Part shown: positions 2,419-63,101 of the stretch, in pieces
Layout of the letters: the number at the start of each line of letters is the position of its first letter
Numbering within the stretch: position 1 is the stretch's first letter
IMG/VR virus record: IMGVR_UViG_3300001533_003623
Coordinates: 1-64,000 of that record
Source of the DNA: a virus
DNA length: 64,000 nt
Reading direction: 5' to 3' (one strand)
The notes under the pieces: model-generated
Told to the model about the DNA's origin: nothing
What the model saw: the letters and a program-made list of their open reading frames with translations, nothing else
Databases searched by the model: none
Made by a program: the position numbers and the translations under genes

Positions 2419-2572
2419 TGATATACCAGAATGGATGAAAGAACGTACTATACATGTGATATACTTACGTGATATAGGATATGATTCAAGTACTTTATCA
2501 AATGCAACTAACAGTGATGTAAAGAAATGGTACGAAGCAGAGAAAACTAAGCAGGGAAGCCCACCCTGCTAA
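2405..2572 (+). CDS. Small hypothetical protein, 55 aa
   Basis: ATG lies inside the previous gene's 3' end (overlap 14 bp). The product has a weak helical pattern (DIPEWMKERTIHVIYLRDIG). Its last codons (K-Q-G-S-P-P-C) are written by the stem of the terminator hairpin at 2550-2577, so the C-terminus is dictated by an RNA signal. No family is recognised. Confidence 0.45.
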   Translation: MKKSNDIPEWMKERTIHVIYLRDIGYDSSTLSNATNSDVKKWYEAEKTKQGSPPC

Positions 2573-2577
2573 TTTTT
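2550..2577 (+). terminator. Rho-independent terminator
   Basis: Perfect 7-bp stem AGCAGGG (2550-2556) / CCCTGCT (2564-2570) with a 7-base loop, followed by AATTTTT. It overlaps the stop codon of the small gene before it and immediately precedes the tRNA-Ala promoter, so it separates two transcription units. The left arm is a copy of the dispersed GCAGGGAAG motif. Confidence 0.7.
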
Positions 2578-2581
2578 CGTC

Positions 2582-2609
2582 TTGACTTTTGTGTATTTTG
2601 GTGTATAAT
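2582..2609 (+). promoter_or_regulatory. Sigma70-type promoter for tRNA-Ala group
   Basis: TTGACT (2582-2587), 16-base spacer, TATAAT (2604-2609) preceded by TGG TG. Transcription would start near 2616, just ahead of tRNA-Ala at 2622. The same architecture recurs at 11835, 22675, 31863 and 51798(-). Confidence 0.75.
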
Positions 2610-4530: not shown

Positions 4531-4684
4531 GTTGTTCAAGAAGTTCTATGCACTTAAAAACTTCTACTCTCGTTGTGGTTCATTGTGGTCGGAAGGAAAA
4601 TTCATTAGCACTATTGGTTTTGTCAGTGCTGATACAATTAAAAGATACATTCAAGAGCAAAAAGAGTTTGATGAGGACGAGTGA
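4475..4684 (+). pseudogene. tnpA: IS200/IS605 tnpA 3' remnant
   Basis: In the frame ending at 4684 the sequence reads PTVAPSDIVRTFKSISA..., then SLWSEGKFISTIG and TIKRYIQEQ. This is the C-terminal part of Y1 (IS200-type) transposases, including the helix with the catalytic tyrosine (K-R-Y-I). The HUH half and the element's left end are missing. The remnant abuts release-factor sequence near 4470. It overlaps tnpB by GTGA at 4681, the junction expected in a native tnpA-tnpB pair. No start codon with a ribosome site is visible. Confidence 0.7.
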
Positions 4685-5886
4685 AGATATTAAGAGCATA
4701 CAGATATAGGTTGTATCCAACGAAAAAACAGGAACAACAATTAAAACAACAATGTGGAAACTGCCGTTTCCTTTGGAATAGGTTTCTTGACATGAACCAA
4801 CGGCAGTATGAAAATACAGGCAAGTTTGTGTTTGCTTATGAACTCATTACTTCCATTCCCGAACTCAAAAAAGAACATGACTTCCTCGGACTTACGTTTA
4901 GCCAATCGCTTCAACAAGTAGGTCGTTTTTTTGACAGAGCATTAAAAGACTTTATCGCAGGCATCCGTGAGTTTCCAAAGCACAAGAAAAAGAAGTATCA
5001 AGACGGATTGACCGTTCCACAAAAGTTCCGCTTAAACAAAAAGTTTGTGTTCATTCCAAAGATTGGTGAAGTTCAATGGGTTAAACACAGACCATATAAA
5101 GGTAAAGTCAAAAGTATCACCGTTAAGCAAGATGGCGACCAGTGGTATTGCTCGGTTTTGTGTGAACTAAGAATTAAACAACCAAAAACAAATACAGATA
5201 ATGTTGTTGGCATAGATGTAGGTCTGAAAACATTTGCCACATTGTCCGATGGGACAACAGTTGAAAACGAACGAGTATTAAGAAAGCACGAAAGAAGGTT
5301 GAACAAAGCCCAACGCATACTTTCTCGGAGAAAGAAAGGTGGGCAAAACAGAAACAAACAACGGGTCAAGGTTGCGAAACTTCATCGTAAAGTCCGACAT
5401 GTAAGAAGTAATTTCCAACATCAAATCACAAGTCGTATGATAGCCAAATATGATGGATTTGCTTTGGAAACACTGAACATTGAAGGTATGATGAAGAACC
5501 ACAATCTTGCTAAAAGTATAGCCGATGTTGGTTGGTATAGTTTTAAGCAAAAATTGAAGTATAAGTCAGAGTGGAGTGGCAAAGTGTTTCTTGAAATAGG
5601 AACATTTGAGCCGAGTAGCAAAACTTGTCATTGTTGTGGATGGAAGGACACAGACCAAATGCTTCAAGACCGAACATTCTGTTGTGAACAATGCGGAATG
5701 GATATGGACAGAGACTTGAATGCCGCTATCAACATTAGGAATATAGCGATTAAAGATATACCGTGGGACGCACGGGAATTTACGCTTGGGGATGATAAGA
5801 GGTTGCAGTCAGATAATGACAGTGCTTGTCGTAGAGCCAAGAAAAAACAATGCTTAGCCCTAACCGAACTTGCATCGGTTAGATAG
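4681..5886 (+). CDS. tnpB: IS605-family TnpB RNA-guided nuclease, 401 aa
   Basis: TnpB is the ancestor of Cas12 and cuts DNA next to a TAM, guided by an RNA from the element's right end. Visible: N-terminal AYRYRLYPTKKQ (OrfB helix-turn-helix), RuvC-I GIDVGLKTFATLS (catalytic Asp), RuvC-II with Glu in FALETLNI, zinc finger CHCCGW...CCEQCG, and RuvC-III Asp in DRDLNAAINI. All three acidic residues are present, so it may be active. GTG start overlaps the tnpA remnant stop. It ends in a Lys/Arg-rich tail. Without TnpA it cannot transpose alone, but could still act as a homing-type nuclease. Confidence 0.9.
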   Translation: MKILRAYRYRLYPTKKQEQQLKQQCGNCRFLWNRFLDMNQRQYENTGKFVFAYELITSIPELKKEHDFLGLTFSQSLQQVGRFFDRALKDFIAGIREFPKHKKKKYQDGLTVPQKFRLNKKFVFIPKIGEVQWVKHRPYKGKVKSITVKQDGDQWYCSVLCELRIKQPKTNTDNVVGIDVGLKTFATLSDGTTVENERVLRKHERRLNKAQRILSRRKKGGQNRNKQRVKVAKLHRKVRHVRSNFQHQITSRMIAKYDGFALETLNIEGMMKNHNLAKSIADVGWYSFKQKLKYKSEWSGKVFLEIGTFEPSSKTCHCCGWKDTDQMLQDRTFCCEQCGMDMDRDLNAAINIRNIAIKDIPWDAREFTLGDDKRLQSDNDSACRRAKKKQCLALTELASVR

Positions 5887-6131: not shown

Positions 6132-6746
6132 ATGACAGTAGTATTATGGGACATTAACGTATCTAAGCGACAACAAAACCCAATGTCACAACAATGCCCA
6201 AATGACTGGACACTAAATGATTACTACACTATAGCACAGCGATGTATTGGTGCTTTTGCTTCATCATCATTAGCAAATAATATGCTACACAACGAAGATG
6301 CTGTGTCGTTTGTTGCAGAACATCTGATGTATGCTGCGTATCGTTGGGACGAAAAACGTGGTAGAACACTGTATAGCTATATGAATCAATGTGCATGTTG
6401 GAGTATCAAACGATGGATTAATTTATATAAAAAATCTAATTGTGGTGCTATCATATCACTTAATGACACCCTAACTGACCAACACAAGCCACTTTACGCT
6501 ATTACACCCATAGACGTAGACGCCCCAGATAAAAACCTAGACGACACAGAAAGTCAACAGGCATTAGCAACCCTATTCAATAAAGCAAAGTTGACTGACA
6601 AACAACATTATTGCGTTGAGCATATTTATATACATGGAATCAAGCCGTCTGAAGTCGCACGTAGACTTGGTGTTACACGACAAGCAGTACACCAATGTTT
6701 ACGCAAGGGTATATCGAAATTAAAATTGGTAATAAATGAAAATTGA
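6132..6746 (+). CDS. Sigma70-like RNA polymerase sigma factor, 204 aa
   Basis: Redirects host RNA polymerase to phage promoters. Region 2 is recognisable (AAYRWDEKRGRTLYSYMNQ, then CWSIKRWIN, about residues 65-97), matching the core-binding and -10 recognition helices. Region 4 follows at the C-terminus: LTDKQHY..., then a helix-turn-helix PSEVARRLGVTRQAVHQCL. Regions 1.1 and most of 3 are absent, as in small alternative sigmas. The ribosome site before ATG is weak. Stop overlaps the TTG start of the next gene. A second sigma-like gene is at 10275. Confidence 0.75.
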   Translation: MTVVLWDINVSKRQQNPMSQQCPNDWTLNDYYTIAQRCIGAFASSSLANNMLHNEDAVSFVAEHLMYAAYRWDEKRGRTLYSYMNQCACWSIKRWINLYKKSNCGAIISLNDTLTDQHKPLYAITPIDVDAPDKNLDDTESQQALATLFNKAKLTDKQHYCVEHIYIHGIKPSEVARRLGVTRQAVHQCLRKGISKLKLVINEN

Positions 6747-7243
6747 GTAATTTCATTAAAGACAAAAAAAATGGTCAACACGCCGAAGCGATAGTGTTGA
6801 ATCTAATGAATAACGCTGGGTTTAGCAGTAAGGGCGGCGTTGCAACAGATAGAAGATGGGATATAATTTCGCACTATGGATTAAATCAAATTACGATAGA
6901 AGTCAAATATGATATCTATGAACAACGTAGTGGTAACATAGCCATAGAAGTTTATAATCCTAAATCCAATATTCCCTCTGGTATTACTGCGACAAAAGCA
7001 TTTATATGGGCACATGTTTTAGCAGAAAACGCAGTATGGTTTACTGTAGTTAATACTCTTAAGCAATATATGGACCATAAACCACCGGCAAAAATCATAG
7101 ATATTGGCGGTGATAAAAACGCGACGTTATATCTATATCCAAGCCACGAAATTCTAGTGGATATATTTATCAGAGTAGATAACATACCTTCTAACGATTT
7201 ACGTAATTGGGTAATTCAACAATGGGAACAACAATATGAGTGA
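6743..7243 (+). CDS. PD-(D/E)XK nuclease-like protein, 166 aa
   Basis: RRWDI (about residue 38-42) followed by ITIEVKYD supplies the D...E-x-K catalytic core of PD-(D/E)XK nucleases. The later segment GNIAIEVYN...PSGITATKAFIW is typical of phage Holliday-junction/recombination nucleases of this fold. TTG start overlaps the sigma factor stop (TTGA). Role in DNA processing is inferred. Confidence 0.6.
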   Translation: MSNFIKDKKNGQHAEAIVLNLMNNAGFSSKGGVATDRRWDIISHYGLNQITIEVKYDIYEQRSGNIAIEVYNPKSNIPSGITATKAFIWAHVLAENAVWFTVVNTLKQYMDHKPPAKIIDIGGDKNATLYLYPSHEILVDIFIRVDNIPSNDLRNWVIQQWEQQYE

Positions 7244-8022: not shown

Positions 8023-8969
8023 TAGAATTCAAAGACAAATATTTTCCAGTGTTAGACCATGGTTTTTGTGCACTCGTAGATTACATGGGTGACGATACAG
8101 CTATTACAAGAGCGGCACGGTGTAGTTATGGTGCTGGTAATAGAAGTGTATCTGATGACCGAGGTTTAATACGCACATTGATAAGGGAAAAGCATACTAG
8201 TCCATTTGAAATGTGTGAAGTTGTATTGCATGTTGGCTTACCAATATTCGTTGCGCGTCAATGGATAAGACATAGAACGGCAAGTCTAAATGAATATAGT
8301 GGTAGATATAGTATAATGCCGTCTATATACTACACGCCAGATAATGATAGACTACAAGTGCAACACGCTAAGAATAAGCAGGGAAGTGGGCCTGTATGTA
8401 TTGACGAAGACGCAAAGACCGAAATCAGCACACGGCGTGATGCGCTACGTCATTTTATTACTAACCACTATAATCAATGTCTAGAATTTGACCTTGCGCG
8501 TGAATTATCTCGTATTGACCTACCTCTTAGTACATATACTTTTTGGTATTGGAAGATTGACCTAAAAAACCTACTACATTTCTTACGGCTTAGGCTTGAC
8601 CAACACGCTCAGTGGGAAATTCAACAATACGCTAAAGTCATAGCTGGTCTAGTAGCAAAGTGGGTGCCATTAACATGGGAGGCGTTTGTTGATTATGAGT
8701 TATGTAGTACAACATTCAGCAGACCAGAATTAAAAATACTTGATATTTTGTTCTACGCGCAAGAATTAGATATTGGCACATTAACAAACGAGCACATGTA
8801 TTATATTCGTGGTTTATGTGATAAAAATGGTCTTACAGGTAGAGAACAAGATACATTTATAGAAAAGCTCAAATGTCAACCAAACCTCCCAGCTCATATT
8901 GAACTAAACGTTAATAACGCGAAGACCCCAGAATTTTACCAACAAATGATAAATCAAGGTGTAGTATGA
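8019..8969 (+). CDS. thyX: Flavin-dependent thymidylate synthase ThyX, 316 aa
   Basis: Makes dTMP from dUMP using FAD, NADPH and methylenetetrahydrofolate. The signature RHRTASLNEYSGRYS (about residues 85-99) is the ThyX motif RHR-x7-S with the following conserved Ser-Gly-Arg-Tyr. The second half carries the substrate-binding region (ARELSRIDLPLSTYTFWYWK...). About 90 residues longer than minimal ThyX, with an extra C-terminal helical domain. ATGA overlap with the previous gene. Works with the dCMP deaminase, NrdJ and dNMP kinase encoded further on. Confidence 0.93.
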   Translation: MIEFKDKYFPVLDHGFCALVDYMGDDTAITRAARCSYGAGNRSVSDDRGLIRTLIREKHTSPFEMCEVVLHVGLPIFVARQWIRHRTASLNEYSGRYSIMPSIYYTPDNDRLQVQHAKNKQGSGPVCIDEDAKTEISTRRDALRHFITNHYNQCLEFDLARELSRIDLPLSTYTFWYWKIDLKNLLHFLRLRLDQHAQWEIQQYAKVIAGLVAKWVPLTWEAFVDYELCSTTFSRPELKILDILFYAQELDIGTLTNEHMYYIRGLCDKNGLTGREQDTFIEKLKCQPNLPAHIELNVNNAKTPEFYQQMINQGVV

Positions 8970-10274: not shown

Positions 10275-10760
10275 ATGAGAAGAAATAAAAAACAAATTAC
10301 AAATGATGAATTATATGAAGCTAAACAAAAATATGCGTACACAATAAAAAGAACAACAGAACAATATAGGCATGTATTATCTATTGAGGTAAGAGAAGCA
10401 TGTGGGGATATGGCTTTATGGAAATGCCTTCAATGCTATGACCCAAGCTTTAACCAGTCTGTGTCGTCATCATTATTTCGCTTTATACATTGGGAATGTC
10501 GTAGAGCACTAAGAGACCTTAGACCAAAAACACCACACAGTCAATTACATGAAAACGTAACACAAGACGAGACACAGTATTTAAACATGATTATAAATGA
10601 CTGTTTAGGTGTCTTATGTAGTAGAGATAGACGTATAATAGAAGACAGATACCTATATCAATACACTTTACAAGAGATAGCAAATAAAGAAGGATGTTCC
10701 AGACAGGGTGTTAAGCATATTATTGACCGTTGCTTAAATCGAATGTCTAAAGCATCTTAA
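10275..10760 (+). CDS. Second sigma-like factor, 161 aa
   Basis: Short protein with region-2-like sequence (ALWKCLQCYDPSFNQSVSS, then LFRFIHWECRRALRD) and a region-4 helix-turn-helix (RDRRIIEDRYLYQYTLQEI, then CSRQGVKHIIDRCLNRM). This matches the layout of minimal sigma70-family factors. It lies directly upstream of an extended -10 promoter and a stand-alone glycine-rich gene. Whether it binds RNA polymerase is inference. Confidence 0.6.
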   Translation: MRRNKKQITNDELYEAKQKYAYTIKRTTEQYRHVLSIEVREACGDMALWKCLQCYDPSFNQSVSSSLFRFIHWECRRALRDLRPKTPHSQLHENVTQDETQYLNMIINDCLGVLCSRDRRIIEDRYLYQYTLQEIANKEGCSRQGVKHIIDRCLNRMSKAS

Positions 10761-12511: not shown

Positions 12512-13225
12512 ATGAAGTTAATTTTTAGCGTACTAGACCGAACGGACCTATGGCCTCATTTTCAGGCTCATTATCAAGCACAAGGCGTAACTCAGTTTTT
12601 GTGTATTACTTATGGTCCTAAGCTAGACGGCGCAATAATGATTCCCGCCTCTATTTCTAGTCAATCTTTCACAGGTGTAAATGACGCCAACCAACACAAT
12701 CGAGTTATTCAGCAGTTTGTGTCTCAAAATGAATGGTGTGTAATAGCAGACCTAGACGAGTTTGCTATAGTTAATGATGGAAGTTCAACATTAATAGACG
12801 CATGTACACAAGCACAAAAACAGCATTATAATGTAATTACTGGTGTAATGCTGGATAGAGTAACACGAGACGGGCACTTCCCTGCTAACTTGGAAGAGAA
12901 CATATGGCAACAGTTTCCCATAGGTATGAATGTCACAGGTAGTATAGTTGGTGGGTGCATAGATAAGGTTGTGTGTTTGCAAGGAAATATTAGAGTGGGT
13001 GGTGGTCATCACTATCCACTGCAAAATGCTCATGTGCGTCAATGGCACAAGAAAATAAACGTACATCACTTTAAGTGGTGGGGTACAAACCCAACACAAT
13101 TCTTTCTTAAACGTATTCACGAAGGAAAAGAACAGCCATACACACAGGAACTAAATCGTTTGAATGAATACTTATGTAACAATAACAACCACATCGATGT
13201 ATGTATAGAGCAAGATAATGTCTAA
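12512..13225 (+). CDS. Glycosyltransferase (GT2/GT92-like), 237 aa
   Basis: Starts MKLIFSVLDRTDLWPHF. A clear metal/nucleotide-sugar site lies in VIADLDEFA (about residues 76-84), and His-rich HHYPLQNAHVRQW plus NVHHFKWWG in the second half match family-92/family-2-like transferases that act on protein- or lipid-linked glycans. Length is short but complete. The first gene after the tRNA cluster. Acceptor unknown. Confidence 0.65.
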   Translation: MKLIFSVLDRTDLWPHFQAHYQAQGVTQFLCITYGPKLDGAIMIPASISSQSFTGVNDANQHNRVIQQFVSQNEWCVIADLDEFAIVNDGSSTLIDACTQAQKQHYNVITGVMLDRVTRDGHFPANLEENIWQQFPIGMNVTGSIVGGCIDKVVCLQGNIRVGGGHHYPLQNAHVRQWHKKINVHHFKWWGTNPTQFFLKRIHEGKEQPYTQELNRLNEYLCNNNNHIDVCIEQDNV

Positions 13226-14643: not shown

Positions 14644-17097
14644 ATGCCTAGTTATAAAGAAGCGCTGAAGGCTAGTTTAGAATACTTTGATGGTGATGAG
14701 TTAGCAGCAAAAGTATTTGTAGATAAGTACGCCTTAAGAACAATTGATAATGAATTAGTTGAGCTTACACCTACAGATATGCATAGACGTATAAGTAAGG
14801 CATTGTATGATGTTGAGGTACAGAAGTTTGGACAAGACGCACTGTCTGAACAAACTATTTTTGATGCTTTGGACAAATTTCGGTACATCATTCCGCAAGG
14901 CGGCTGTATGTCAGGTATCGGTAGTCCTAGCTTTGTCACATTGAGTAATTGCTATGTCGTAGACCCGCCAAAAGACTCTTATGGCGGCATCATGCTCACT
15001 GATGAACAAATTGTACAGATAAGTAAGAGAAGAGGCGGTTGTGGAACCGATATTTCTAAACTACGACCAAGAGGCGCTGTAACACATAATTCTTCTCGGA
15101 CAAGTACTGGTCCTGTGTGTTTCGCTGATAGATTCTCTCATTCTATTAGAGAAGTCGGCCAAAACGGAAGGCGTGGCGCGTTAATGTTAACTATGGATGT
15201 ACATCATCCAGATATTCTTGATTTCATTAACAGCAAAACAGACAAAACGCGACTTACTGGTGCTAATCTATCTGTGCGTTTGTCAGACGAATTCCTTTGT
15301 GCTGTGCGTGACAATACCACATATGAACAAAGATGGCCGGTAGATAGTGATAAGCCACAAATAAGCAGGGAAGTGTGTGCCGCTGATGTGTGGGAGGCGA
15401 TTACAAAGAATGCTCACGAACATGCAGAACCGGGGGTGTTGTTTTGGGATAAGATTCTAAGTGAAAGCCCAGCAGATTGCCATAAGGAATTCAAAACCGA
15501 GGGCGTTAACCCATGCTCAGAACTAAGTTTGTCAATCTTGGATAGTTGTCGTTTGTTGTTGATTAATGCATTTAGTTTTGTTGAAAAGCCATTTAGTAAA
15601 AAGCCTGTATTTAATTGGCGTAAGTTCTATGAATATGCTCGTATGGCCCAGCGTCTCATGGATGACATTATAGACTTGGAGCTTTACTATATTAAACGTA
15701 TAATTACAAAAATACAAAACGATGACGAATCATTAGAACTCAAACACCGTGAATTAGATATGTGGTGGCGCGTATACAATAATTGTGAGACTGGTCGTCG
15801 TACTGGTACTGGCATCACTGCGTTAGCTGATACACTTGCGGCCCTAAACCTACCATACGCATGTAAAAAGTCATTAAAGTTTGTAGACCGCATATACAAA
15901 ACCTTGAAATTCGGATGCTACACTGCATCTATTGACATGGCTAAAACTATCGGCCCATTTGCTGTGTGGAATGCAGAGAATGAAAGTCGGTGTCCATTCT
16001 TTTTGCGTTTCGCTGAAGAAACATGTGATATAGAAGATACTATTATTGATGGTAGTAGTGTAATGGCAGATATGATGAAATACGGCAGACGTAATATTGG
16101 GCTTTTAACTAGCTCGCCTGCTGGCTCAACAAGTCTAGAAACACAGACTTCATCAGCCATAGAGCCAGTATTTGCTTTGTCAACAACTAGACGAAAAAAG
16201 GGTAATCCATCAGACGAAGATTTTCGAGTTGATTTCATAGACGCAAAAGGTGACCACTGGATGGAGTTTACTGTGCTACACCCAAAACTAAAGATGTGGT
16301 GTGATATAACAGGCGAACAAGATATAACTAAATCTCCATGGAACGGTAGTTGCGCCAAAGACTTAGACTATACATACAGAATTAAACTACAGGCTACTGC
16401 TCAACGCCACATAGACCATAGTATATCAAGCACAATTAATCTTCCTGCTGATACCACGGTCGAACAAGTACAAAAGATATACATGCTTGCATGGGAACTT
16501 GGATGCAAAGGTGTTACGGTATATCGTGATGGATGCAGGGATGGCGTTATTTTAGATAAGGTTGCAATTGACAAGCAAAAATCTTGTGGTACAATACAAG
16601 ATAAGCGACCACGGATATTGCCGTGCGACGTACATCATACTTCTGTACAAGGCCAAAGCTACTTTGTTCTTGTGGGGTTGCTCGACGGGAAACCATATGA
16701 GGTTTTTGCTGGAAAAAACGGATTTATTCCTAGTAAAGTCAAATCAGGAACTATTACTAGAAAACGAAAGAACTTTTATATAGCGCATTTTGATGATACG
16801 GATGACGAATTGTCACCTATTACTGCCGCAACTACTGAGATGGAAGAAATGATAACTAGGCTTACTTCATTAGGGTTGAGGTATGGCGCGGATATGCACA
16901 AGGTTGTGCAACAACTAGAAAAGGTTGGGGAAAGAAAGGCTATGAATAGCTTTGCTAGGGGTGTAGCTCGCGTATTGAAGAAATACATAGTAGATGGCAC
17001 ATCGGAGAATGAGCAGTGCCCTGAATGCAAGTCGGATATGATTAGGCAAGAAGGTTGTGTAAAATGCACTAGTTGTGCTTGGACACGATGCTTATAA
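14644..17097 (+). CDS. nrdJ: Adenosylcobalamin-dependent (class II) ribonucleotide reductase NrdJ, 817 aa
   Basis: Reduces ribonucleotides to deoxyribonucleotides with vitamin B12 as radical source. Visible: N-terminal ALRTIDNELVELTPTDMHRR, the CxxxG region SNCYVVDPPKDS, RRGGCGTDIS, the active-site loop NPCSELSLS with DSCRLL, and GCKGVTVYRDGCRDG. The C-terminus carries a zinc-finger-like CPECKSDM...CVKCTSC motif with redox-type cysteines. Full length for class II. No thioredoxin or class I subunit gene is seen, so the enzyme needs host B12. Confidence 0.92.
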   Translation: MPSYKEALKASLEYFDGDELAAKVFVDKYALRTIDNELVELTPTDMHRRISKALYDVEVQKFGQDALSEQTIFDALDKFRYIIPQGGCMSGIGSPSFVTLSNCYVVDPPKDSYGGIMLTDEQIVQISKRRGGCGTDISKLRPRGAVTHNSSRTSTGPVCFADRFSHSIREVGQNGRRGALMLTMDVHHPDILDFINSKTDKTRLTGANLSVRLSDEFLCAVRDNTTYEQRWPVDSDKPQISREVCAADVWEAITKNAHEHAEPGVLFWDKILSESPADCHKEFKTEGVNPCSELSLSILDSCRLLLINAFSFVEKPFSKKPVFNWRKFYEYARMAQRLMDDIIDLELYYIKRIITKIQNDDESLELKHRELDMWWRVYNNCETGRRTGTGITALADTLAALNLPYACKKSLKFVDRIYKTLKFGCYTASIDMAKTIGPFAVWNAENESRCPFFLRFAEETCDIEDTIIDGSSVMADMMKYGRRNIGLLTSSPAGSTSLETQTSSAIEPVFALSTTRRKKGNPSDEDFRVDFIDAKGDHWMEFTVLHPKLKMWCDITGEQDITKSPWNGSCAKDLDYTYRIKLQATAQRHIDHSISSTINLPADTTVEQVQKIYMLAWELGCKGVTVYRDGCRDGVILDKVAIDKQKSCGTIQDKRPRILPCDVHHTSVQGQSYFVLVGLLDGKPYEVFAGKNGFIPSKVKSGTITRKRKNFYIAHFDDTDDELSPITAATTEMEEMITRLTSLGLRYGADMHKVVQQLEKVGERKAMNSFARGVARVLKKYIVDGTSENEQCPECKSDMIRQEGCVKCTSCAWTRCL

Positions 17098-17403: not shown

Positions 17404-18507
17404 ATGTTTTTAGACATGGAAAAGGTGCGACAGTTGGTCGCGGATGGTTACATATCTGTTCGTAAACATCCAAACGCTCCACTATTTATCTACAACTACA
17501 CACCTAAATGTCAGTACGAATGGCACTGGACACCTGAAACAATAGCGTGTCGCGGTCTCATATTAGACGACCGTGATAATGTGGTTGCCCGTCCATTTCC
17601 TAAGTTCTTTACGCCAGACCAATATCGTGACTTACGTAATAACGTACATAATCTCTTTGGTATTTGTTATAAAGACCTTTATCAGGGTGGATTTAAGGTT
17701 ACTGAGAAGGTAGATGGCTCAATGGGTGTATTGTATCATTACAACGGAGCTTTGGCTATTGCCTCACGTGGCTCCTTTGAGTCAGAGCAAGCAGTACATG
17801 CCACCAAAATACTTCAAGAAAAATACGGCGAATTTCCTTTTGTTGTAGACCCTGATTGTACCTACATCTTTGAGATAGTGTATCCAGATAATCGTATTGT
17901 AGTTGACTATGAAGGATTAGACGACATTGTTTTGTTAACAGTATTAAACAATGAAAATGGTGAAGATTTACCAGACCTTGTTCGTCAATGGCAAGACGCT
18001 GGTGGGCTAGCCGCAAAGTCGTATTGCTTTGCGTTTTTTGACAATGTCTTGAATGAGCAGCAAGTAGGCAGGGAAGGGTTCGTTGTGAAGTTTGATAGCG
18101 GCCTGCGAGTGAAGGTCAAGTTTGAAGACTACATACGATTACACCGTATTCTAACTAATATGTCTGCTCGTGATATTTGGGAGCGATTACGCAATAACGA
18201 ACCGCTTGACGATTTGCTAGAAGTGGTTCCTGACGAATTCTATAATTGGGTTCGTAAGATTGAACGTGACCTAACAAACAAATATAGAGAGATTGAGCAA
18301 CATGCACAAGGCGTGATTCAACGTGATGTAGTTAAGTGCAACACGCCTCTTACGCGCAAGCAACTAGCTATCAAGCACAAGAACTACCAGTATAAAGGCA
18401 TCATGTTTAATATGCTAGACAACAAAGAGTATGCAGACTCAATATGGCGTATTATTCGACCAAAAGCAGAATTACCGTTCTCAACGACTGACGAAAAGGA
18501 TAGATAA
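17404..18507 (+). CDS. rnlA: T4 Rnl1-type RNA ligase, 367 aa
   Basis: ATP-dependent RNA ligase that seals tRNA anticodon breaks. Motif I is EKVDGSMG with nucleophile Lys102. RGLILDD before it, ASRGSF (motif III region), FEIV (motif IIIa/IV) and the late GFVVKF...VKVKFEDY (motifs IV-V) complete the nucleotidyltransferase core. A helical C-terminal domain follows, as in T4 RnlA. Together with the PNKP gene at 18817 it forms the RNA repair pair that reverses host anticodon-nuclease damage; eleven phage tRNA genes are nearby. Confidence 0.9.
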   Translation: MFLDMEKVRQLVADGYISVRKHPNAPLFIYNYTPKCQYEWHWTPETIACRGLILDDRDNVVARPFPKFFTPDQYRDLRNNVHNLFGICYKDLYQGGFKVTEKVDGSMGVLYHYNGALAIASRGSFESEQAVHATKILQEKYGEFPFVVDPDCTYIFEIVYPDNRIVVDYEGLDDIVLLTVLNNENGEDLPDLVRQWQDAGGLAAKSYCFAFFDNVLNEQQVGREGFVVKFDSGLRVKVKFEDYIRLHRILTNMSARDIWERLRNNEPLDDLLEVVPDEFYNWVRKIERDLTNKYREIEQHAQGVIQRDVVKCNTPLTRKQLAIKHKNYQYKGIMFNMLDNKEYADSIWRIIRPKAELPFSTTDEKDR

Positions 18508-20874: not shown

Positions 20875-21240
20875 ATGCCAGAACATAAAATAACAAAACC
20901 AAATAAAACAGAAGTGGTTGAACGTGTTGCTGAAGTTGTGCCAGATTTGCAGAACGCATGTGAAGCAATAGTAACAACGCAAGTGATTATTTGTGAGCCT
21001 ATGACTGATGGTACGTGGCGTCTAATTACATCATTTCAAGACAATTACAATATAGTGCTGGAAGAGCGCGACCCAGATAAAGCACGTAACGAAGTTACCA
21101 ATAGATTGATGGAGATAAAGAAAAAATGGCACAAAAAAGGTTTGATAATAGCGTTAGAGAATTTGCTAAACAAAGAGAGTCAAATATCCAAGATGGCAAA
21201 CACAACAACATCTCCTGCTCAGCCTGTGGAGAGTCCTTAG
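20875..21240 (+). CDS. Hypothetical protein, 121 aa
   Basis: ATG has GGAGA 6 bases upstream and sits just after the FmdB-like stop. Lys-rich N-terminus, then a helix/strand domain (TWRLITSFQDNYNIVLEERD), with a helical Lys-rich stretch near the end. No family recognised. Its last 115 bp overlap the next gene. Confidence 0.5.
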   Translation: MPEHKITKPNKTEVVERVAEVVPDLQNACEAIVTTQVIICEPMTDGTWRLITSFQDNYNIVLEERDPDKARNEVTNRLMEIKKKWHKKGLIIALENLLNKESQISKMANTTTSPAQPVESP

Positions 21241-25639: not shown

Positions 25640-25641
25640 TA

Positions 25642-43250: not shown

Positions 43251-44266
43251 TGTCGTCCGCAATACAAAGTATTATCAGAAGAGCCACAAGAAATCCAAAT
43301 AGCCCATGGAATATTCTCACGTTTCCAACCCACGAAAGATATGAAACTTCATTAGCTGCTACTGGACACAACTTCTACGGTATTAGAAGGCCAAACAGTA
43401 AAGAATGGAAGACGCACTATGCTCCAGTGCCAGATAACTATCATTTATTACCTGTGAGCGAAGGTCTTGAATTGCCACCATGGGTAGATTTTGATATGAT
43501 ATTAAGCCAAAATAAGGTGTCACAATTTCGAATAGCGCAAATAGTTGCACATCAATTACATATACCGCTAATTAATTTAGAGCACACCCTACCGCCTAAT
43601 GAATGGACGCCGGGTAAAATAGCTAACTTTAGAAGTTTGCAGGGAAGCATCAATGTGTTTGTTTCTGAATATCAAAAACAAATGTGGGGAATAGACGGCA
43701 TAGTCAACCCAACCGGCATAGACACAGATGTGTTTTGTCCACCTACTACGCCAGAGCGCGAACCGTGGGCATTATCTGTTGTTAACGATTGGATAAATAG
43801 AGACTGGTGTTGTGGATTTTCTTTATGGAGAGAAGTAACAGGATTTCCTAGTCCCGCCCCACTAATCCCTTGTAAGGTTTTGGGCGATACTCCTGGTTTG
43901 TCTCAATCAGCGCCTGATATTCCAACTTTGGTGAAGTTTTATCAAACTGCCGGTGTTTACCTAAATACGACCCTGGTATCATCATTACCGACCGTGATAC
44001 TAGAGGCTATGGCGTGTGGTTGTCCTGTTGTAAGTACTGATACTTGCTTAATTCCAAAAAATATTATTGAACATGGTGTGAATGGGTTTGTAGGTAGTAA
44101 TGTAGATGAACTTAAAGGCTACACCCTGGAAATACTGAATAATCCAACACTTGCTAAACAAATAGGGGATGCGGGGCGACAGACAATACTTGAAAAATTC
44201 TCAAAACAAATATTTACAGACCAGTGGAATAACATATTCAAACAGGCGACGGAGATTCATATATGA
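43250..44266 (+). CDS. Glycosyltransferase (GT1/GT4-like), 338 aa
   Basis: NILTFPTHERYETSLAATGH resembles the first strand/helix of GT-B enzymes found in phages and cyanobacteria. PTGIDTDVFCPP opens the second domain; LEAMACGCPVVSTDT gives the donor-site motif, followed by a NGFVG loop and the C-terminal helix. One-base overlap with the previous gene and ATGA with the next. Confidence 0.78.
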   Translation: MSSAIQSIIRRATRNPNSPWNILTFPTHERYETSLAATGHNFYGIRRPNSKEWKTHYAPVPDNYHLLPVSEGLELPPWVDFDMILSQNKVSQFRIAQIVAHQLHIPLINLEHTLPPNEWTPGKIANFRSLQGSINVFVSEYQKQMWGIDGIVNPTGIDTDVFCPPTTPEREPWALSVVNDWINRDWCCGFSLWREVTGFPSPAPLIPCKVLGDTPGLSQSAPDIPTLVKFYQTAGVYLNTTLVSSLPTVILEAMACGCPVVSTDTCLIPKNIIEHGVNGFVGSNVDELKGYTLEILNNPTLAKQIGDAGRQTILEKFSKQIFTDQWNNIFKQATEIHI

Positions 44267-47642: not shown

Positions 47643-48128
47643 ATGACAATTCCAGTGAACTTTTTAGTTAATCATGTCGGCGCTAGTCAAATGATGTTCT
47701 ACTTGATTGAGCAAGCCAACGAAATAAATAAGCAGGGAAGCCTGCATGCCTCTCTCTTTTATTCCGACCTACATAGACCATGTCGCCAGCTAGAACTACC
47801 AACGTTTTTAATGATAGAGGCTTGGGCGCAGCCTGGGGTGTCTATTTCAACCTCTATCCCAACCACCCTTTCCCTGCTTAGATTTCCTGGTCCTAACGTA
47901 CGTATGTTTTATGTTTGGGATATGTCTTGGATGGATAATCCAAAAAGATATGGAGTGATGACATCATTATTTAGACATCCGTCATTACATATAATAGCGC
48001 GTTGTAATCACCACGCACAAATCATAAGCAATAACTTCAACATAGAAGTTAAGCATATCGTAGAGAATTTTCAACATCAAAACCTATCAGAGGTAATACA
48101 TCATGAGTATTCATTACTTAAAAAATAG
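47643..48128 (+). CDS. Hypothetical protein resembling a glycosyltransferase N-terminal domain, 161 aa
   Basis: Alpha/beta protein (VNFLVNHVGASQMMFYLIE, later NVRMFYVWDMSWM) similar to the acceptor domain of phage GT-B enzymes, but the donor domain is missing. It holds one exact GCAGGGAAG motif and one near copy on opposite strands. It runs into the start of the nuclease gene, so it may have been cut short by that insertion. Confidence 0.45.
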   Translation: MTIPVNFLVNHVGASQMMFYLIEQANEINKQGSLHASLFYSDLHRPCRQLELPTFLMIEAWAQPGVSISTSIPTTLSLLRFPGPNVRMFYVWDMSWMDNPKRYGVMTSLFRHPSLHIIARCNHHAQIISNNFNIEVKHIVENFQHQNLSEVIHHEYSLLKK

Positions 48129-50174: not shown

Positions 50175-51773
50175 TCAAACGTTGTACACAAATCGTTTTT
50201 TACCACAATCCCAAATACGCGCATACCCATGCTGTAAACACCATTCTTTTTCAGTGATGTTACTAGGGCACCCAGTCTTAGACTTCATCATAGATTGCTT
50301 ACTAATCCTTTGACGGGGTTGGCTAATCTTTACATAAGAATAGTCAGCCCCTATTTCTTTATCTAAAACAAATCCCATTTTGTGATACACAGTTCCAGAT
50401 GACCATCTGTTATCAGACCACGTAGTAATTTTATGAATGCTGTTTTGCTTACACCATTGTATGGCATACTTCAATAGTTTGGACGCGCCACCAAGCACAG
50501 ACACACCACGAACAAACGCTAATCTATCCAATACTATATCTTCAGTCATCCTATGATGATTATTGAGAGACAGCACACCACATAATTCATCCTGGTAGTA
50601 TAATCCAAAATATACAAGAGCAGCTCTACGACATCCTTGTATATGGAATTGCTGTATAAAATTTTTACCAATACTTGAATCAATTATATCTACGTAGCAC
50701 TTTCTACCATAAACAGACTTATTTTTGTGTAGGACTGCGTCTAAGTAACCTTGTACCTGCGGCTGACGTAATAACCACTCGTCTGAAAAAATAGTTATCA
50801 AGCGGATATCTTGTTCTAGACATTGTTTATATTTATCATAATGATAGTTTCTTAATCTTGGTTCTAGCGAAAGTTCATGATGCCAATGTAGTCCGCAGTA
50901 TTCAATACCTAATCGTAAATCGTCATCATAGAAGTCTATTTCTTTACCATTTAGGATGGTTCGATTAGGTTGAAAAGAGTCTCCTAAAAATACGCCTAGA
51001 CTATCCTGTTCAACAAAAGAAGACATATGATATGATTCAGCACCATACCTTTCCATACACGTTTGAATAGCTTTGTTTTTAATAGCTTGGTCTTGTAGTG
51101 TACATGAAACACCATATTTCTTTAAGCACGTTTCACGTATTCTGTTTTGTACTTTAGGTGATTTTGCAGCATATTCAAAACCATATCGTTGCAAATTTGT
51201 GTCCCTAATCTTTTGTTTAACTTCTTCTGATTGAGATGGGTGACTAGTGCCATATTTATTAATAGACGTAGCCTTTACTCTGGCTTTATGTTCGTCGGAT
51301 TGTGTGTAAGACTCTACTCCATACTTTTTCAAACAAGTCGCTCTACGTTTAGCAATGTTTTGGTTTATCTTAGGGCGTTGACCCCAATAACAGTTAGCAG
51401 GAGAACAGGGGGCGGTATTATCTCGTCTACGTAACACCAAGCCCTTACTCCATCCGTTTTGAATAGACCAATCATAAAAAGCTTGATAATCACTAGACCA
51501 TTCTTTGGAAGCTATCCTACGAGTCTTCATGGATTTCCAACTATTATAGACTGGGTGTTTAATTGGCGCAGTATACTTATCATTATACCTATGCATTCTT
51601 TGACTAGCGGCTTTGCGATTATAACACCCACAACTTTTAGTTCTGCCAGAAGTTACACTAGTTGTTCTTATGCTTTTGACAGTACCACAATCACATTTGC
51701 ATGACACCTTACCATTACATGGTAATTCTAATACAGTTAGGTAGTTAAACTTTTGTCCGATATGAATTTTCAT
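50175..51773 (-). CDS. Hef/NUMOD-type homing endonuclease with acetyltransferase-like C-terminus, 532 aa
   Basis: N-terminal zinc motif (CKCDCG...SCGCYNRK) followed by four or more NUMOD-like DNA-binding repeats of form (T)CLKKYGV... (about residues 140-275). A PD-(D/E)XK nuclease core then reads NGKEIDFYDDDLRLGIEYCG with WHHE. The C-terminal part (YQDELCGVLSLNN, then LDRLAFVRG and ITTWSDNRWSSG) is like a GNAT fold. Start ATG 51773 has a perfect AGGAGG. Own promoter at 51798-51825, so it is an independently expressed mobile gene between the two gene blocks. Confidence 0.75.
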   Translation of the reverse strand: MKIHIGQKFNYLTVLELPCNGKVSCKCDCGTVKSIRTTSVTSGRTKSCGCYNRKAASQRMHRYNDKYTAPIKHPVYNSWKSMKTRRIASKEWSSDYQAFYDWSIQNGWSKGLVLRRRDNTAPCSPANCYWGQRPKINQNIAKRRATCLKKYGVESYTQSDEHKARVKATSINKYGTSHPSQSEEVKQKIRDTNLQRYGFEYAAKSPKVQNRIRETCLKKYGVSCTLQDQAIKNKAIQTCMERYGAESYHMSSFVEQDSLGVFLGDSFQPNRTILNGKEIDFYDDDLRLGIEYCGLHWHHELSLEPRLRNYHYDKYKQCLEQDIRLITIFSDEWLLRQPQVQGYLDAVLHKNKSVYGRKCYVDIIDSSIGKNFIQQFHIQGCRRAALVYFGLYYQDELCGVLSLNNHHRMTEDIVLDRLAFVRGVSVLGGASKLLKYAIQWCKQNSIHKITTWSDNRWSSGTVYHKMGFVLDKEIGADYSYVKISQPRQRISKQSMMKSKTGCPSNITEKEWCLQHGYARIWDCGKKRFVYNV

Positions 51774-51780
51774 AAAAAAA

Positions 51781-51818
51781 ACCTCCTCATGTGATATATT
51801 ATACACCACATGGGAGGT
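51781..51818 (-). promoter_or_regulatory. Inverted repeat spanning -10 box and ribosome site
   Basis: ACCTCC-T-CATGTG (51781-51793) mirrors CACATG-GGAGGT (51807-51818), with one extra base, around ATATATTATACAC. The repeat covers the -10 box and the AGGAGG of the homing endonuclease gene. Candidate operator, or an RNA hairpin that hides the ribosome site. Confidence 0.55.
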
Positions 51819-58432: not shown

Positions 58433-61400
58433 CTAACAATATTCGCATACAAATGTTACATCTCTAGTATATCGTCCTGTCGAAGGATTCCAAGACTCGC
58501 GGTCGCTTTCCACATAAGTATTCAGAGCGCTACCACTACAACTAACCCCACTAATTATATCCTCAACCTCAGTGGTAATGCCACTAGGTTTTGAAGTCAG
58601 CACACCACACTCTTTAGGAAAAGTTGCTTGTATACTAACTGAAAATTTCTCGGCTGTTTTTGTGCCCTTATCTTGAATTAATGGACCATTAGCTCGACCA
58701 AGAATTGGTACTATGGCAATGACATCAGCGCCATATTCACGACTAATAGTTATTGACTCATCAAATACACCGGACAAAATAGTATCACAACACTTATAAG
58801 TATAGGTATAAGTCAATTGACCATTATACTTATTAGCTGTTACTTGTGTACCAGATAATCTAATAGTTTCACTACACAAACCAGATGCAGTACTAGATAA
58901 AGATGCTGCAATAGTAGACCACGCAGCTTCAGTAACTGCAATCTGACCAGCTCTACCAGTAGATGCATCACAATATGGAGTAATAGTTCCAGAAACAACT
59001 ATTTCTGAACAGCAACCTTGTTCATCATGGCGTACCGACACAGTTTGCTCATGCTTATAACCACTTGTACAATCCTTAAAGTCATATGTAAAATTAATAA
59101 TACCATTTCGTTCATTTTTTACCACACGAGAAGATACCATGCACCCATATGAAGAATAAGCACTGACTCCATGACTACCAAAAAGAGATTCAGCAGCAGC
59201 AAATGCTCCGCCAGTAGCAAAACACAAACCTTGTATTTGACCTTCTATATTGTATTGAGCCTCGCCACATTCTTCAGTGGTATAGGACTCTGTAATAGTT
59301 AAGTCAAGAGTCGCATCACATTCCGTACTAAAGGTATATGTTTTAGTAATCGAACCACGAGTTAAATTTTCGCGTACTTGTGTAGAAGTTTGACACGAAC
59401 CACTTGGCGCATAATCTGAAGCGTCTAGACTACTCAAAGCACCTCTAGCATTAGCTATCATAGTGTTGCTATCACAACCAGTGCCAGTTACAGAAAACTC
59501 TACCGTAGTATTAGTAACATCACAATTGTCAGGACCAACCGATGTATCGACTGTAATTTCAACCAAACCAAGTCCAGTATCACCGTCCCAATCATATTGC
59601 CATGAAATATGTTTTTTATCTGCGTCACTAGTAACAGAACGCGAGGTCAATACAGCATCAAAACCATAGGTAGATGGAGCGGGCGCTGATGGCATAGCTC
59701 CATCACAAGTGCCCTGAATACTACCAGATACACTATATTTAGTTTTACTTGTGCCGTCAGAAGCTAGGTCTCCACAAGACCACGACTCTGTAATCGTTTC
59801 TTCTTGTACATCAGTATCTTCACGAAAATCATACGTAAAAGAAATGGTCCCACTCTTCTCATTGCGTGATATACGTGAAGACGCTAAAGACCCATATGTT
59901 GCATAAGCGCCAACACCATAATTAGCAAACTCAGCCTCAGCAGCAACCATCGCTCCACCACTAGCAAAGCAATTACCAACGATATTGCCTTCAACAGTAG
60001 TAGATTCACGCTCATCACAATATTGATTATCTATAGCGGTAGTAATAGTGATATCAACAGAAGCATCACATTCAGTGGTAAAACCATATGTTTCTTCAAT
60101 AGTGCCTTGTGTGCGATTTGTTGATATGTTGTGGTATGTTTGACAAGACCCTGGTTCAGCATACAAACTAGCACTTAGACTACCAATAGCTGATTGTGCA
60201 TTTGCCAGCTTACTAACACTATCACAACCATTACCTTCTACAGAAAATGACACCTTTGTTTCTATAACATCACAGTTTTCAGGTCCGCTAGACTTTTCAA
60301 CTACGATATCAACCAAACCAAGACCGGTATCGTCATCCCACTCATACTGCCACGATACTGTACGATTCTCTTCATCTGTCGTAACCGACGTACTACGTAA
60401 TGTAGCATCAAAACCATAAGAGGCTGGAGTCGGTGCTTCAGGTATGTCTACATCAGAGCAATATGCTTGAATACTGCCATCAACTGAATACTTGTATTTG
60501 CTTTCACCGTCAGACCCTAACTCACCACAAGTCCAACTAATGGTTGTTTTCTCTTCTCTTAAACCATCCTCAGTACCACGGTCACTGAATTCACAAGAGA
60601 ATTCGATAATTCCATCAGTAACGTTCTGTGTATATGAGCTAGATGTTTTGATTAATGTACCACTACCAGAATATGCAGAAGTGGCTTCATCGTCACAATT
60701 TATATTATTATATGCTAATTGTGCTTGTTCAAACTTAGTCAGGTCACAACCACATGCATGACCTTGAATATTACCATTGATTACGACAGTAGTATTGCAA
60801 TCACCAATTAAACTAGTTTGTACATTAGTGGTCAAAGAAATATCAGCAGGAGAGGCAGCATCGCTAAACTCATATGAAAATTTCACCACACGAGACGCTT
60901 GCCCAAACGCCGTGTCTGCCCCTCTTAGTTCTGTAGTAGTAGTAATAGACCGCGATACAGGACAACTGCTTAAAGTAAGACATCCATGGCTTGCATATGC
61001 TGTGTTGGCAAGACTATACGCTGAATTTGCTGCATCCCATGAGTTGAATGCTGTTAGAGCTGCGTTGGCGTTTGTTGGGTCGGTTTCAGTATCAGAAACA
61101 CGGTTAAGAAAAGAACGAAATTCTCCTTCGATAGATACTGTAGTATCACCGTCACGAACCTGATTTAGTGTAGTAGTCCATATCTTGAACACTGGGTCTT
61201 TGGCTAAAGTCCATGTCTCTGAAATAGAATATGTTCCACCGATTTCATCAATTGAACGTTCTACAGTATAATCATATGCCGTATAATCAACAAGATTAAG
61301 ACCAGTACTACCAAACACTATGTCATTATTTATGGTGCTTGGGACATTTCCGGTATAATCAGAACCAGCTAATCTAGTGTCAACCCATGTTTTAGCGACT

Positions 61401-61981
61401 TGCCATCCAGCATGTACATTGCCATAGTCTTCGGCAAATTCTTGTGCTTGGGCAGATAATGTGTGCGTTAAACGATAAACGCCACCTTCTTCTTCTTCAA
61501 ACTTTACAGACCAGTTTTCGCTATGTTCAAGTTGTAAACTGTCGTCTTCTATTACAAGAGCATCCTGAAGTTCTAATTGTATGCTATATTGTGAAGTATG
61601 TGTCCAACGACCCGCTGGAAAATTCACACTAGTAACACGAGCACGCCATTTACGCACAACGCCGCTACAACCAACTACTTCAAACCAATGATAGTCTTGT
61701 CCAATAGCAAATAATTCCCTCATCCTATCTTGCATAGCCACAAGATTACTAAATGAATCACCACCAGTATCATCAGACGGATAGTCACTGCCTGTATAAA
61801 AATCTGGAGAAGAACTAAAGTCCCATCCTTTGGTGCCAACTAAAGTTCCGCTTAAAGTAACTGTATGAGATGAGCCAATAATAGAGCCATCAGCCGAACG
61901 AATAAAGCTCTTACCGAAATCTAATTCGGGCGCTGGAATAATTCGTTTGCCATTATATAGAATTGCTGTTTGTGCTGCCAT
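58433..61981 (-). CDS. Tail protein with ~250-aa tandem repeats, about 1182 aa
   Basis: The N-terminal 300 residues look like a phage tail/baseplate domain (LVAMQDRMRELFAIGQDYHW, then WRARVTSVNFPAGRWTH). The rest is a beta-rich, Cys-rich array: YGFDATLRSTSVT and YGFDAVLTSRSVT, followed by (W)QYEWDDDTGLGLV and QYDWDGDTGLGLV, lie exactly 750 bp apart. A partial third copy is further along. Paired cysteines are conserved between copies. ATGATG start after AGGGG. Probably an elongated virion fibre or tail spike component. Confidence 0.6.
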   Translation of the reverse strand: MAAQTAILYNGKRIIPAPELDFGKSFIRSADGSIIGSSHTVTLSGTLVGTKGWDFSSSPDFYTGSDYPSDDTGGDSFSNLVAMQDRMRELFAIGQDYHWFEVVGCSGVVRKWRARVTSVNFPAGRWTHTSQYSIQLELQDALVIEDDSLQLEHSENWSVKFEEEEGGVYRLTHTLSAQAQEFAEDYGNVHAGWQVAKTWVDTRLAGSDYTGNVPSTINNDIVFGSTGLNLVDYTAYDYTVERSIDEIGGTYSISETWTLAKDPVFKIWTTTLNQVRDGDTTVSIEGEFRSFLNRVSDTETDPTNANAALTAFNSWDAANSAYSLANTAYASHGCLTLSSCPVSRSITTTTELRGADTAFGQASRVVKFSYEFSDAASPADISLTTNVQTSLIGDCNTTVVINGNIQGHACGCDLTKFEQAQLAYNNINCDDEATSAYSGSGTLIKTSSSYTQNVTDGIIEFSCEFSDRGTEDGLREEKTTISWTCGELGSDGESKYKYSVDGSIQAYCSDVDIPEAPTPASYGFDATLRSTSVTTDEENRTVSWQYEWDDDTGLGLVDIVVEKSSGPENCDVIETKVSFSVEGNGCDSVSKLANAQSAIGSLSASLYAEPGSCQTYHNISTNRTQGTIEETYGFTTECDASVDITITTAIDNQYCDERESTTVEGNIVGNCFASGGAMVAAEAEFANYGVGAYATYGSLASSRISRNEKSGTISFTYDFREDTDVQEETITESWSCGDLASDGTSKTKYSVSGSIQGTCDGAMPSAPAPSTYGFDAVLTSRSVTSDADKKHISWQYDWDGDTGLGLVEITVDTSVGPDNCDVTNTTVEFSVTGTGCDSNTMIANARGALSSLDASDYAPSGSCQTSTQVRENLTRGSITKTYTFSTECDATLDLTITESYTTEECGEAQYNIEGQIQGLCFATGGAFAAAESLFGSHGVSAYSSYGCMVSSRVVKNERNGIINFTYDFKDCTSGYKHEQTVSVRHDEQGCCSEIVVSGTITPYCDASTGRAGQIAVTEAAWSTIAASLSSTASGLCSETIRLSGTQVTANKYNGQLTYTYTYKCCDTILSGVFDESITISREYGADVIAIVPILGRANGPLIQDKGTKTAEKFSVSIQATFPKECGVLTSKPSGITTEVEDIISGVSCSGSALNTYVESDRESWNPSTGRYTRDVTFVCEYC
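58930..60440 (-). repeat. Tandem coding repeat, period 750 bp
   Basis: The same short DNA string AGCATCA followed by AAAACCATA occurs at 60404 and 59654 (750 bp apart), and the encoded segments align over about 250 residues including Cys positions. A further degenerate copy continues towards 58930. Recent or selected duplication inside one tail gene. Confidence 0.7.
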
Positions 61982-61997
61982 CATAAACCCCTATGTC

Positions 61998-63101
61998 TTA
62001 CCATCCAAAAACATATAGTGCAGTTACGCCACTATCATAATCAATAGTATCAGGTATTGTCAATGTACAATTTGTAGATTCCACATATGCCCCAGATATA
62101 TATAGAGATGCATATGTATTAAGCAATGCATTGTTCTGTTGCATATACAACGGTATGCTATCTGATGCATCATATATTCCATTAATATATAGGTCTAGCT
62201 GTTCAGTGTCTAAATACATGCCTTTGATATACAGGTTGGCATAAGTATTTACTGAACCTATATTTGGATTCATTACTAATGTCAATATGTCAGAAGTATC
62301 ACCAACAGAAAGAGTATATAAAATAGATGAATTATCATCTGATATCATTCCATTGATATAACAACTAGCAAAAGTATTAGCAGGGAAGGTTGTGTGGGGA
62401 ATCACTAAAGTCAAAGACTCGTTAATATCAACCGTACTTAGAGTATACAGCGATATAAAAGTATTTAATTCACTTTTTCCACCAACAAATAAAGTACTAT
62501 GAATATCTACACCGTCTTGCTGCAAATACATAGGCATCGCTTGGCCGTACGGAACAAACCCACTCCAAAAACCAGGGGCCTTTACATATAGCGTTAAGCT
62601 CTCTGCTATTTGCTCATTGAAAATAAGTAGGTCTAAATGACCGCTCAAACGATTCATGCGCCCGTTCATAAAAAGCGTGTGCACACCGCTAAACGGAGCG
62701 GATGTTTGCGTGTTCATTAAAAACAGGGGCATCTCCTGCTCATATGATGGCGGTCCCATATACAGCGGTATGGATGACTGAACACCAAAAGTACCAGCGG
62801 TTCCAGTTTGCAAAAATAATGTAGCATAAGTATTGACTGCATTCACATGACCATGTATATAAAGCAAACAACTATTATTATGTATGCCTATACCATCTAC
62901 ATACAGAGACATAGACTCATTTATTGGTACTATTCCCTGCATATATAATGACATGAAAGAATTAAGTGCGCAGTGTGTTGCTATATACAAAGGTATGTCT
63001 TCAGAACTACCTGGAGACACCTGAATATACAAAGACATACTGTCATTGCATGAGTCTACACCAGATAGATATAGATTAAGTACATCGTTAATGTCTGCCA
63101 T
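61998..63101 (-). CDS. Tail protein with 17-18-residue LYxxG repeats, 367 aa
   Basis: The whole protein is a chain of short beta units of about 17-18 residues ending in L-Y-(I/M/V)-x-G or similar (for example ESMSLYVDG, NTYASLYISG, NTYANLYIKG, EQLDLYING), about 19 units. Such regular strands suggest a beta-solenoid or stacked-strand fibre. AGGAAAAC before ATG. Located between the tape-measure-like gene and the 1182-aa tail protein. Confidence 0.65.
   Translation of the reverse strand: MADINDVLNLYLSGVDSCNDSMSLYIQVSPGSSEDIPLYIATHCALNSFMSLYMQGIVPINESMSLYVDGIGIHNNSCLLYIHGHVNAVNTYATLFLQTGTAGTFGVQSSIPLYMGPPSYEQEMPLFLMNTQTSAPFSGVHTLFMNGRMNRLSGHLDLLIFNEQIAESLTLYVKAPGFWSGFVPYGQAMPMYLQQDGVDIHSTLFVGGKSELNTFISLYTLSTVDINESLTLVIPHTTFPANTFASCYINGMISDDNSSILYTLSVGDTSDILTLVMNPNIGSVNTYANLYIKGMYLDTEQLDLYINGIYDASDSIPLYMQQNNALLNTYASLYISGAYVESTNCTLTIPDTIDYDSGVTALYVFGW

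Follow-up and report, generated by a model that had tools for sequence, protein, structure and literature searches.

A short asymmetric word scattered through the genomes of an uncultured phage clade, kept at the DNA level and possibly a Chi-like signal

The uncultured phage genome IMGVR_UViG_3300001533_003623 (hereafter G000; record length 84,015 bp) carries a short word, GCAGGGAAG, scattered along both of its strands. The first 64 kb of the record form the stretch analysed here as the window, and all coordinates below refer to it. It represents the most frequent local form of a broader, asymmetric signal, whose core is TWAGCARGRRAG and which in G000 is most often written TAAGCAGGGAAG. That this is a real signal, kept by selection at the DNA level, we hold to be nearly certain, and among the contigs compared it is restricted to one phage clade. 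Its role is a more tentative matter; the reading that we favour is a Chi-like control of recombination or repair. To our knowledge, phages seldom carry genome-wide words that are selected at the DNA level, and the majority of the known examples (stoperators, nick sites) show strand bias. A literature search on the word itself returned no match.

Enrichment of the word and selection on DNA

An earlier note on the window had listed twelve copies by eye, eight on the plus and four on the minus strand, and had put the number expected by chance at about 0.2. All twelve are present at the places it gave, and 100 dinucleotide-preserving shuffles of the window contain 0.18 copies on average, with a maximum of 2. 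The full record holds 15 copies (11 plus, 4 minus), while the reversed-pattern control has none. When words in the full record are ranked against a second-order Markov expectation, GCAGGGAAG comes first among all 9-mers (15 versus 0.15), AGCAGGGAAG first among all 10-mers (13 versus 0.04) and TAAGCAGGGAA first among all 11-mers (7 versus 0.02). With one mismatch allowed, the 10-mer finds 21 matches, compared with a median near 2 for 60 permuted 10-mers. Hence, the count is far from expectation, and it is not shared by other 9-mers or by permuted words, which are far rarer. The note's figure of one copy per 5 kb is correct as an average but not as a regularity, the spacing being Poisson-like.

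Thirteen of the 15 exact copies lie in open reading frames (ORFs), which make up 94% of the genome. As the note had described, the in-gene copies are read in more than one frame and lie on either strand of the genes. It had also argued that protein selection does not explain them, and this is borne out by a null in which synonymous codons are shuffled while every protein is kept unchanged: the 13 in-gene copies compare with 0.29 ± 0.55 over 300 shuffles (maximum 3). Furthermore, the proteins contain the tripeptide F-P-A 8 times, where 2.4 would be expected. Six of these are encoded by TTC-CCT-GCT, even though TTC encodes just 24% of Phe in G000, making it a minority codon, and CCT 30% of Pro. 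This excess and this spelling indicate that the word has pulled protein sequence along with it.

A coding or compositional artefact, arising from repeated peptides, codon preference or a fluke picked by eye, could draw on the fact that preferred frames do exist (x-F-P-A antisense and K-Q-G-S sense). It is, however, ruled out by the codon-shuffle, Markov and permutation nulls, and the top 11-mer of the independent relative G001, described below, is a one-base variant of the same word. We consider this explanation very improbable.

The wider motif, its layout and its turnover

Relatives were picked through the similarity of their DnaE-type DNA polymerase, and the clade was taken as five contigs with polymerases at least 65% identical: G000 itself; G001 (IMGVR_UViG_3300033145_000551, 34 kb, 73% amino acid identity to the G000 polymerase); G002 (IMGVR_UViG_3300018080_000152, 86 kb, 72%); G003 (3300017992_000357, 10 kb); and G004 (3300013133_000595, 12.7 kb, 65%). 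The close relatives mostly write AGCAAGGAA. The 34-kb contig of G001 contains no copy of GCAGGGAAG; its own top 11-mer, TAAGCAAGGAA (5 versus 0.01 expected), is one base off the G000 word. G002 has 18 copies of AGCAAGGA versus 2.2 expected, and G003 and G004 each have two copies of GCAGGGAAG. A second version, AGCAGGAGA, is found 6 times in G000 (0.23 expected), 3 times in G001 (0.08 expected), 7 times in G002 (0.36 expected) and once in G004. The polymerase tree leaves undecided whether the G variant and the A variant mark two separate clades.

A matrix iterated over the five clade contigs (227 kb) describes the motif as 5'-TWAGCARGRRA(g)G; downstream of it, some 10 bases up to about +20 are poor in A. 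The motif is thus asymmetric and G-rich, with 3' context past the core. The pooled matrix finds about 105 sites versus about 8 expected; since such in-sample counts are partly circular, cross-validation was added. Trained on G001 and G002, the matrix finds 23 sites in G000 versus a null of 1.8 ± 1.7. The converse training, on G000 only, yields 22 sites in G002, 9 in G001 and 3 in G003, where the nulls are 3.3, 1.3 and 0.4, respectively. Neither cross-trained matrix rises above the null in five larger contigs from outside the clade. Likewise, the density of pooled-matrix sites is 0.43 to 0.51 per kb in G000-G002, as opposed to 0 to 0.12 in 17 other related contigs. Within genes, matrix sites exceed their null in each of the three largest clade members (G000, 33 versus 6.9; G001, 15 versus 2.1; G002, 43 versus 5.8), and G002 keeps 17 in-gene copies of AGCAAGGA versus 2.8 after codon shuffling. 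This wider motif, with its variant forms in relatives, is new beyond the earlier note. In other contigs the highest-ranking words belong to promoters (GGTGTATAATA), to codon repeats or to coding repeats of the collagen-like type, and no firm analogous word was seen among them.

The sites are laid out without regard to genes or their direction. Among matrix sites, 53 of 96 have the same orientation as local transcription (p = 0.36), and 7 of the 15 exact copies agree with it. The strand split (plus:minus) is 11:4 for the exact word (p = 0.12), and 19:17 in G000 and 18:26 in G002 for the matrix. Positions are uniform along the genome (Kolmogorov-Smirnov p = 0.94, 0.90 and 0.53), gaps are Poisson-like (coefficient of variation 0.80 to 0.97), and sites fall in ORFs about as often as the ORF content of the genome predicts. 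No strand switch of the sites was seen at the GC-skew change near 50 kb. The random orientation relative to transcription removes an RNA-level signal, which the note had offered as one option.

Protein-guided alignment shows how individual sites differ between relatives: AAT AAG CAG GGA AGT in G000 faces AAT AAG CAA GGA AGC in G001, and ATA AGC AGG GAA GTG in G000 faces ATA AGC AAG GAA GTA in a relative. Shared positions include the exact sites at 8378-8386 (+) in the thyX-like gene, where both G001 and G002 have AAGCAAGGAAG; at 15365-15373 (+) in the ribonucleotide reductase gene, where G001 has AGCAAGGAAG; and at 31270-31278 (+) in gene 31124-31585 (read as KQGR), where G001 has AAGCAAGGAAAG and G003 has TAAGCAGGGAAGG. 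Also shared are the AGCAGGGAA site at 47870-47878 (-), matched by TAAGCAAGGAG in G002, and the AGCAGGAGA-type site at 30421-30429 (-), written TTAGCAGGAGAGG, whose position is kept in G001. For the majority of G000 sites, the orthologous position in relatives carries no site; the exact copy at 12877-12885 (-), antisense in gene 12512-13225 (HFPA), is not kept in G001, and that at 18068-18076 (+) in the RNA ligase gene is not conserved. Sites are therefore gained and lost by substitution, their density being held while their positions turn over.

The remaining exact copies within genes of the window, apart from two with hairpins, are at 25141-25149 (-), antisense in gene 25040-25639; 37824-37832 (-), antisense in the C-terminal half of the DnaE-type polymerase gene; 43639-43647 (+), in gene 43250-44266; and 62380-62388 (+), antisense in gene 61998-63101 (TFPA). 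Further AGCAGGAGA-type sites lie at 21211-21219 (-), 51396-51404 (+), 60845-60853 (+) and 62732-62740 (-), and AGCAGGAAGG-type sites at 22814-22823 (+) and, in the DNA polymerase gene, at 33731-33740 (+).

The same alignments bear on whether the word is the scar, or marks the ends, of a small mobile repeat, a suggestion of the note that the dispersal of exact copies over both strands might seem to favour. The copies share no sequence past about 23 bp, and no consistent insertion appears at the orthologous positions that can be aligned in relatives, which show base changes in place instead. Such in-place changes remove this reading, and we give it almost no weight.

Three sites are associated with hairpins, as the note had reported. 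The exact site at 2551-2559 (+), written TAAGCAGGGAAG, is intergenic, before a tRNA-Ala gene, and forms an inverted pair (TWAGCAGGG..CCCTGCTWA) with its overlapping partner AGCAGGGTG at 2562-2570 (-; matrix score 18.9). The sites at 35722-35730 (-) in ORF 35523-35798 and at 47732-47740 (+) in gene 47643-48128 have the hairpin GCAGG-GAAG-CCTGC, and the arm at 2551 is longer than this. These three fold at -5.4 to -7.3 kcal/mol and the site at 8378 folds weakly (-2.5 kcal/mol), but most sites do not fold. CCTG is found no more than 14 nt downstream at 4 of the 15 exact sites (p = 0.0003), and folding of G002 sites is not above that of shuffled downstream sequence. We thus rejected the hairpin as the recognised element; at most it is an occasional inverted second site.

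What may read the signal

Words that are asymmetric, free in orientation, indifferent to genes and held by density are typical of an enzyme travelling along DNA, and for this reason a Chi-like control of recombination or repair by a DNA-end-processing enzyme is judged the most likely reading, if tentatively so. We infer both that a protein reads the signal and that this protein is a recombination or repair enzyme. It would track along or scan the phage DNA in either direction and meet one site per 2 to 2.5 kb, so that site density rather than position would do the work. The enzyme would enter at a DNA end and might be a host helicase-nuclease of the RecBCD/AddAB type or a phage enzyme doing that job. 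At a site it would be attenuated or switched to recombination, which would protect the phage genome from degradation and feed a phage recombinase of the RecA/UvsX type. The note had included a Chi-like signal among its options. Of those options it fits the tested properties best (intragenic, on both strands, asymmetric, G-rich, conserved in density), while its mechanism stays conjectural. Two features expected of Chi sites are indeed seen: a short asymmetric word is over-represented whatever the reading frame, and it is tied neither to the direction of transcription nor to gene boundaries.

Several observations nevertheless weigh against a Chi-like role. If the signal were a host Chi, the host chromosome would have to be rich in it, and no Chi-like density of the motif was found in 30 scattered genomes, in 300 of the Propionispira phylum, in 119 of the phylum of an Acidobacteriales metagenome-assembled genome (MAG) or in 79 of the phylum of a Planctomycetota MAG; these roughly 530 bacterial genomes need not include the phage's host, as Bacteroidota, Pseudomonadota and other large phyla lie outside the sample. 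The information content, about 16 bits over about 23 bp, makes the signal longer and looser than the known Chi sequences of 5-8 bp. No helicase of the AddAB/RecBCD type was recognised among the phage genes, so the putative reader would be either an enzyme of the host or a phage protein that escaped recognition. Finally, the phage's RecB-like nuclease is also present in relatives without the signal.

A somewhat more doubtful possibility is that the reader is encoded by the phage and belongs to a previously undescribed genome-wide recognition system, in which word and reader would co-evolve in their specificity, the word having GGGAAG in one lineage but AGGAAG or AGGGA in others. Such a system might, for example, give the phage a Chi-type control of recombination of its own, or serve as a self-mark for distinguishing phage DNA from that of the host. 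The genome does encode a UvsX/RecA-like recombinase (23136-24176, +), which would be the phage's own strand-exchange protein, and a RecB/Cas4-like PD-(D/E)XK exonuclease (30130-31152, +), a possible processing enzyme; as the reader, the exonuclease is a weak candidate, not being clade-specific. The gene at 6743-7243 (+), found only in G000-G002 among the contigs compared, possibly encodes a PD-(D/E)XK nuclease (Pfam E 0.055). The model of its product has a mean pLDDT (predicted local distance difference test score) of 73.5, and its best match among solved folds is I-Ssp6803I (Foldseek E 0.01, below confidence), followed by weak matches to Hjc resolvases. As a candidate reader it is speculative, a lead rather than evidence. 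In a phyletic profile over 16 related contigs, many genes are present in G000-G002 and absent outside the clade; hence no one gene is named as the reader. Two small sigma-region-4-like proteins are also encoded, at 6132-6746 (+), present in G002, and at 10275-10760 (+), present in G001 and G002; one of them has a weak match outside the clade.

The closest rivals are stoperators and nick sites, both of which are essentially one-strand systems. The sites could bind a phage repressor or DNA-coating protein, acting as stoperator-like road-blocks or nucleoid-type organisers. The genomes of cluster A mycobacteriophages have as many as 30 stoperators, asymmetric 13-bp sites that mostly share one orientation relative to transcription; between relatives, their consensus drifts together with the repressor (PMC6550527). 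The change from GGGAAG to AGGAAG resembles this drift, and the inverted CCTG near some exact sites could suit a dimer. However, orientation here is not one-way, and no suitable DNA-binding protein specific to the clade was recognised: the genes scanned include no obvious repressor gene, though helix-turn-helix and sigma-region-4-like proteins are present. We regard this explanation as unlikely. Slightly less weight still is given to recognition sites of a phage nickase, of the kind that, in T5, phiKMV-like phages and Pseudomonas phage tf, leaves packaged DNA with localized single-strand interruptions. In tf, 14 nick sites with the 9-bp word TACTRTGMC occur within the genome regardless of protein frame and always on one strand, and PaP3/LUZ24 have the one-base G-to-A variant TACTATGAC at similar positions (PMC3517423). 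Our word has the same scale and style, with one-base drift between relatives, and the clade-specific gene at 6743-7243 may encode a nuclease; yet both strands are used, in the ratios given above, and turnover is higher. Neither the one-strand confinement of nick sites nor the single orientation of stoperators being seen, the signal is filed under neither family; a both-strand version of either mechanism is possible.

More remote is the possibility that a phage protein reads the sites as a signal for packaging, for the start of replication or for genome segregation. Packaging and origin signals usually occur at a single site or a handful of sites, and those for segregation tend to be palindromes lying in clusters. 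An asymmetric DNA-level signal across the whole genome would agree with such a role in general terms, but many dispersed sites are unlike the usual forms, and the strands do not switch at the turn in GC skew. This option we consider quite improbable.

A dense, orientation-free word whose density stays constant as positions turn over points to an enzyme scanning phage DNA. Should the Chi-like reading hold with a host enzyme, the word would be a marker for the host of this uncultured phage clade and a new Chi sequence; should the reader be phage-encoded, the word would exemplify a new means by which a phage labels or processes its DNA. In either case, the one-base shift between relatives makes the specificity of the reader directly testable.

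Neighbouring features and comparison with known systems

Several other features were seen in G000 and related contigs. The G001 orthologue lacks an insert of about 344 residues (amino acids 245-588) found in the DnaB-type helicase gene (25591-28203, +). This insert gives matches to terminase/endonuclease profiles and is probably an intein with a homing endonuclease. The DnaE-type polymerase is split into two ORFs (32164-34137 and 36685-38790, +) with other genes, including an exonuclease subunit, between them, an arrangement that is colinear in G001; its C-terminal ORF appears to hold a mini-intein at about amino acids 214-362 (C..TSN/S by eye). A TnpB-like gene (4681-5886, +) has no counterpart in G002 or the other compared relatives, its nearest relatives being on cyanobacterial and methanogen plasmids (about 41% identical), and a homing HNH endonuclease gene (50175-51809, -) is absent from G002.

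Among the other contigs, a promoter-like word, TTGGTGTATAATA, is conserved and mostly intergenic in the phage IMGVR_UViG_3300005613_000006 (172.9 kb) and in G002; GGTGTATAATA has 27 copies in the former (0.06 expected) and 6 in the latter. There are 5 copies of TATGGCAAACG in G012 (0.06 expected), spread over both strands in mixed frames, and another 5 in G011; this is possibly, on weak grounds, an analogous scattered word of a more distant relative. Several hairpins of G009, GACGGTTCTCAAC...AAAACCGTCATTTTTT, are probably strong terminators belonging to one family. Two contigs binned as Candidatus Lokiarchaeota, JABXKB010000027.1 and JABXKB010000087.1, carry a phage-type DnaE polymerase 45-46% identical to that of G000 and are probably misbinned phage contigs.

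Among known systems, the DNA uptake sequences of Haemophilus and Neisseria are scattered exact words of about 9-12 bp, kept in genes by selection and drive. The G000 word is like them in its scatter, but they are bacterial chromosomal signals of far higher density, and we know of no role for them in phage DNA. The nick sites of tf offer a likeness in being about 14 scattered 9-bp words with one-base drift, many of whose positions are conserved between tf relatives; nick sites of this type are on one strand only, whereas the sites of the G000 clade are on both. Stoperators of L5 and its cluster A relatives share the many asymmetric sites per genome and a motif that drifts with relatedness, but hold one orientation to transcription, which the G000 clade sites do not. 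Chi sites, in E. coli as in AddAB bacteria, are short, asymmetric and G-rich, lie in genes on both strands every few kb, are indifferent to position and differ between bacterial groups. In E. coli they are read by RecBCD. Their sequence there is GCTGGTGG (PMC7644769). The phage signal differs in its longer, looser core with an A-poor tail, in being known from one phage clade and in showing no enrichment in the bacterial genomes sampled. Nevertheless, it too is short, asymmetric, G-rich, intragenic, present on both strands and indifferent to position, and in these respects it resembles Chi.

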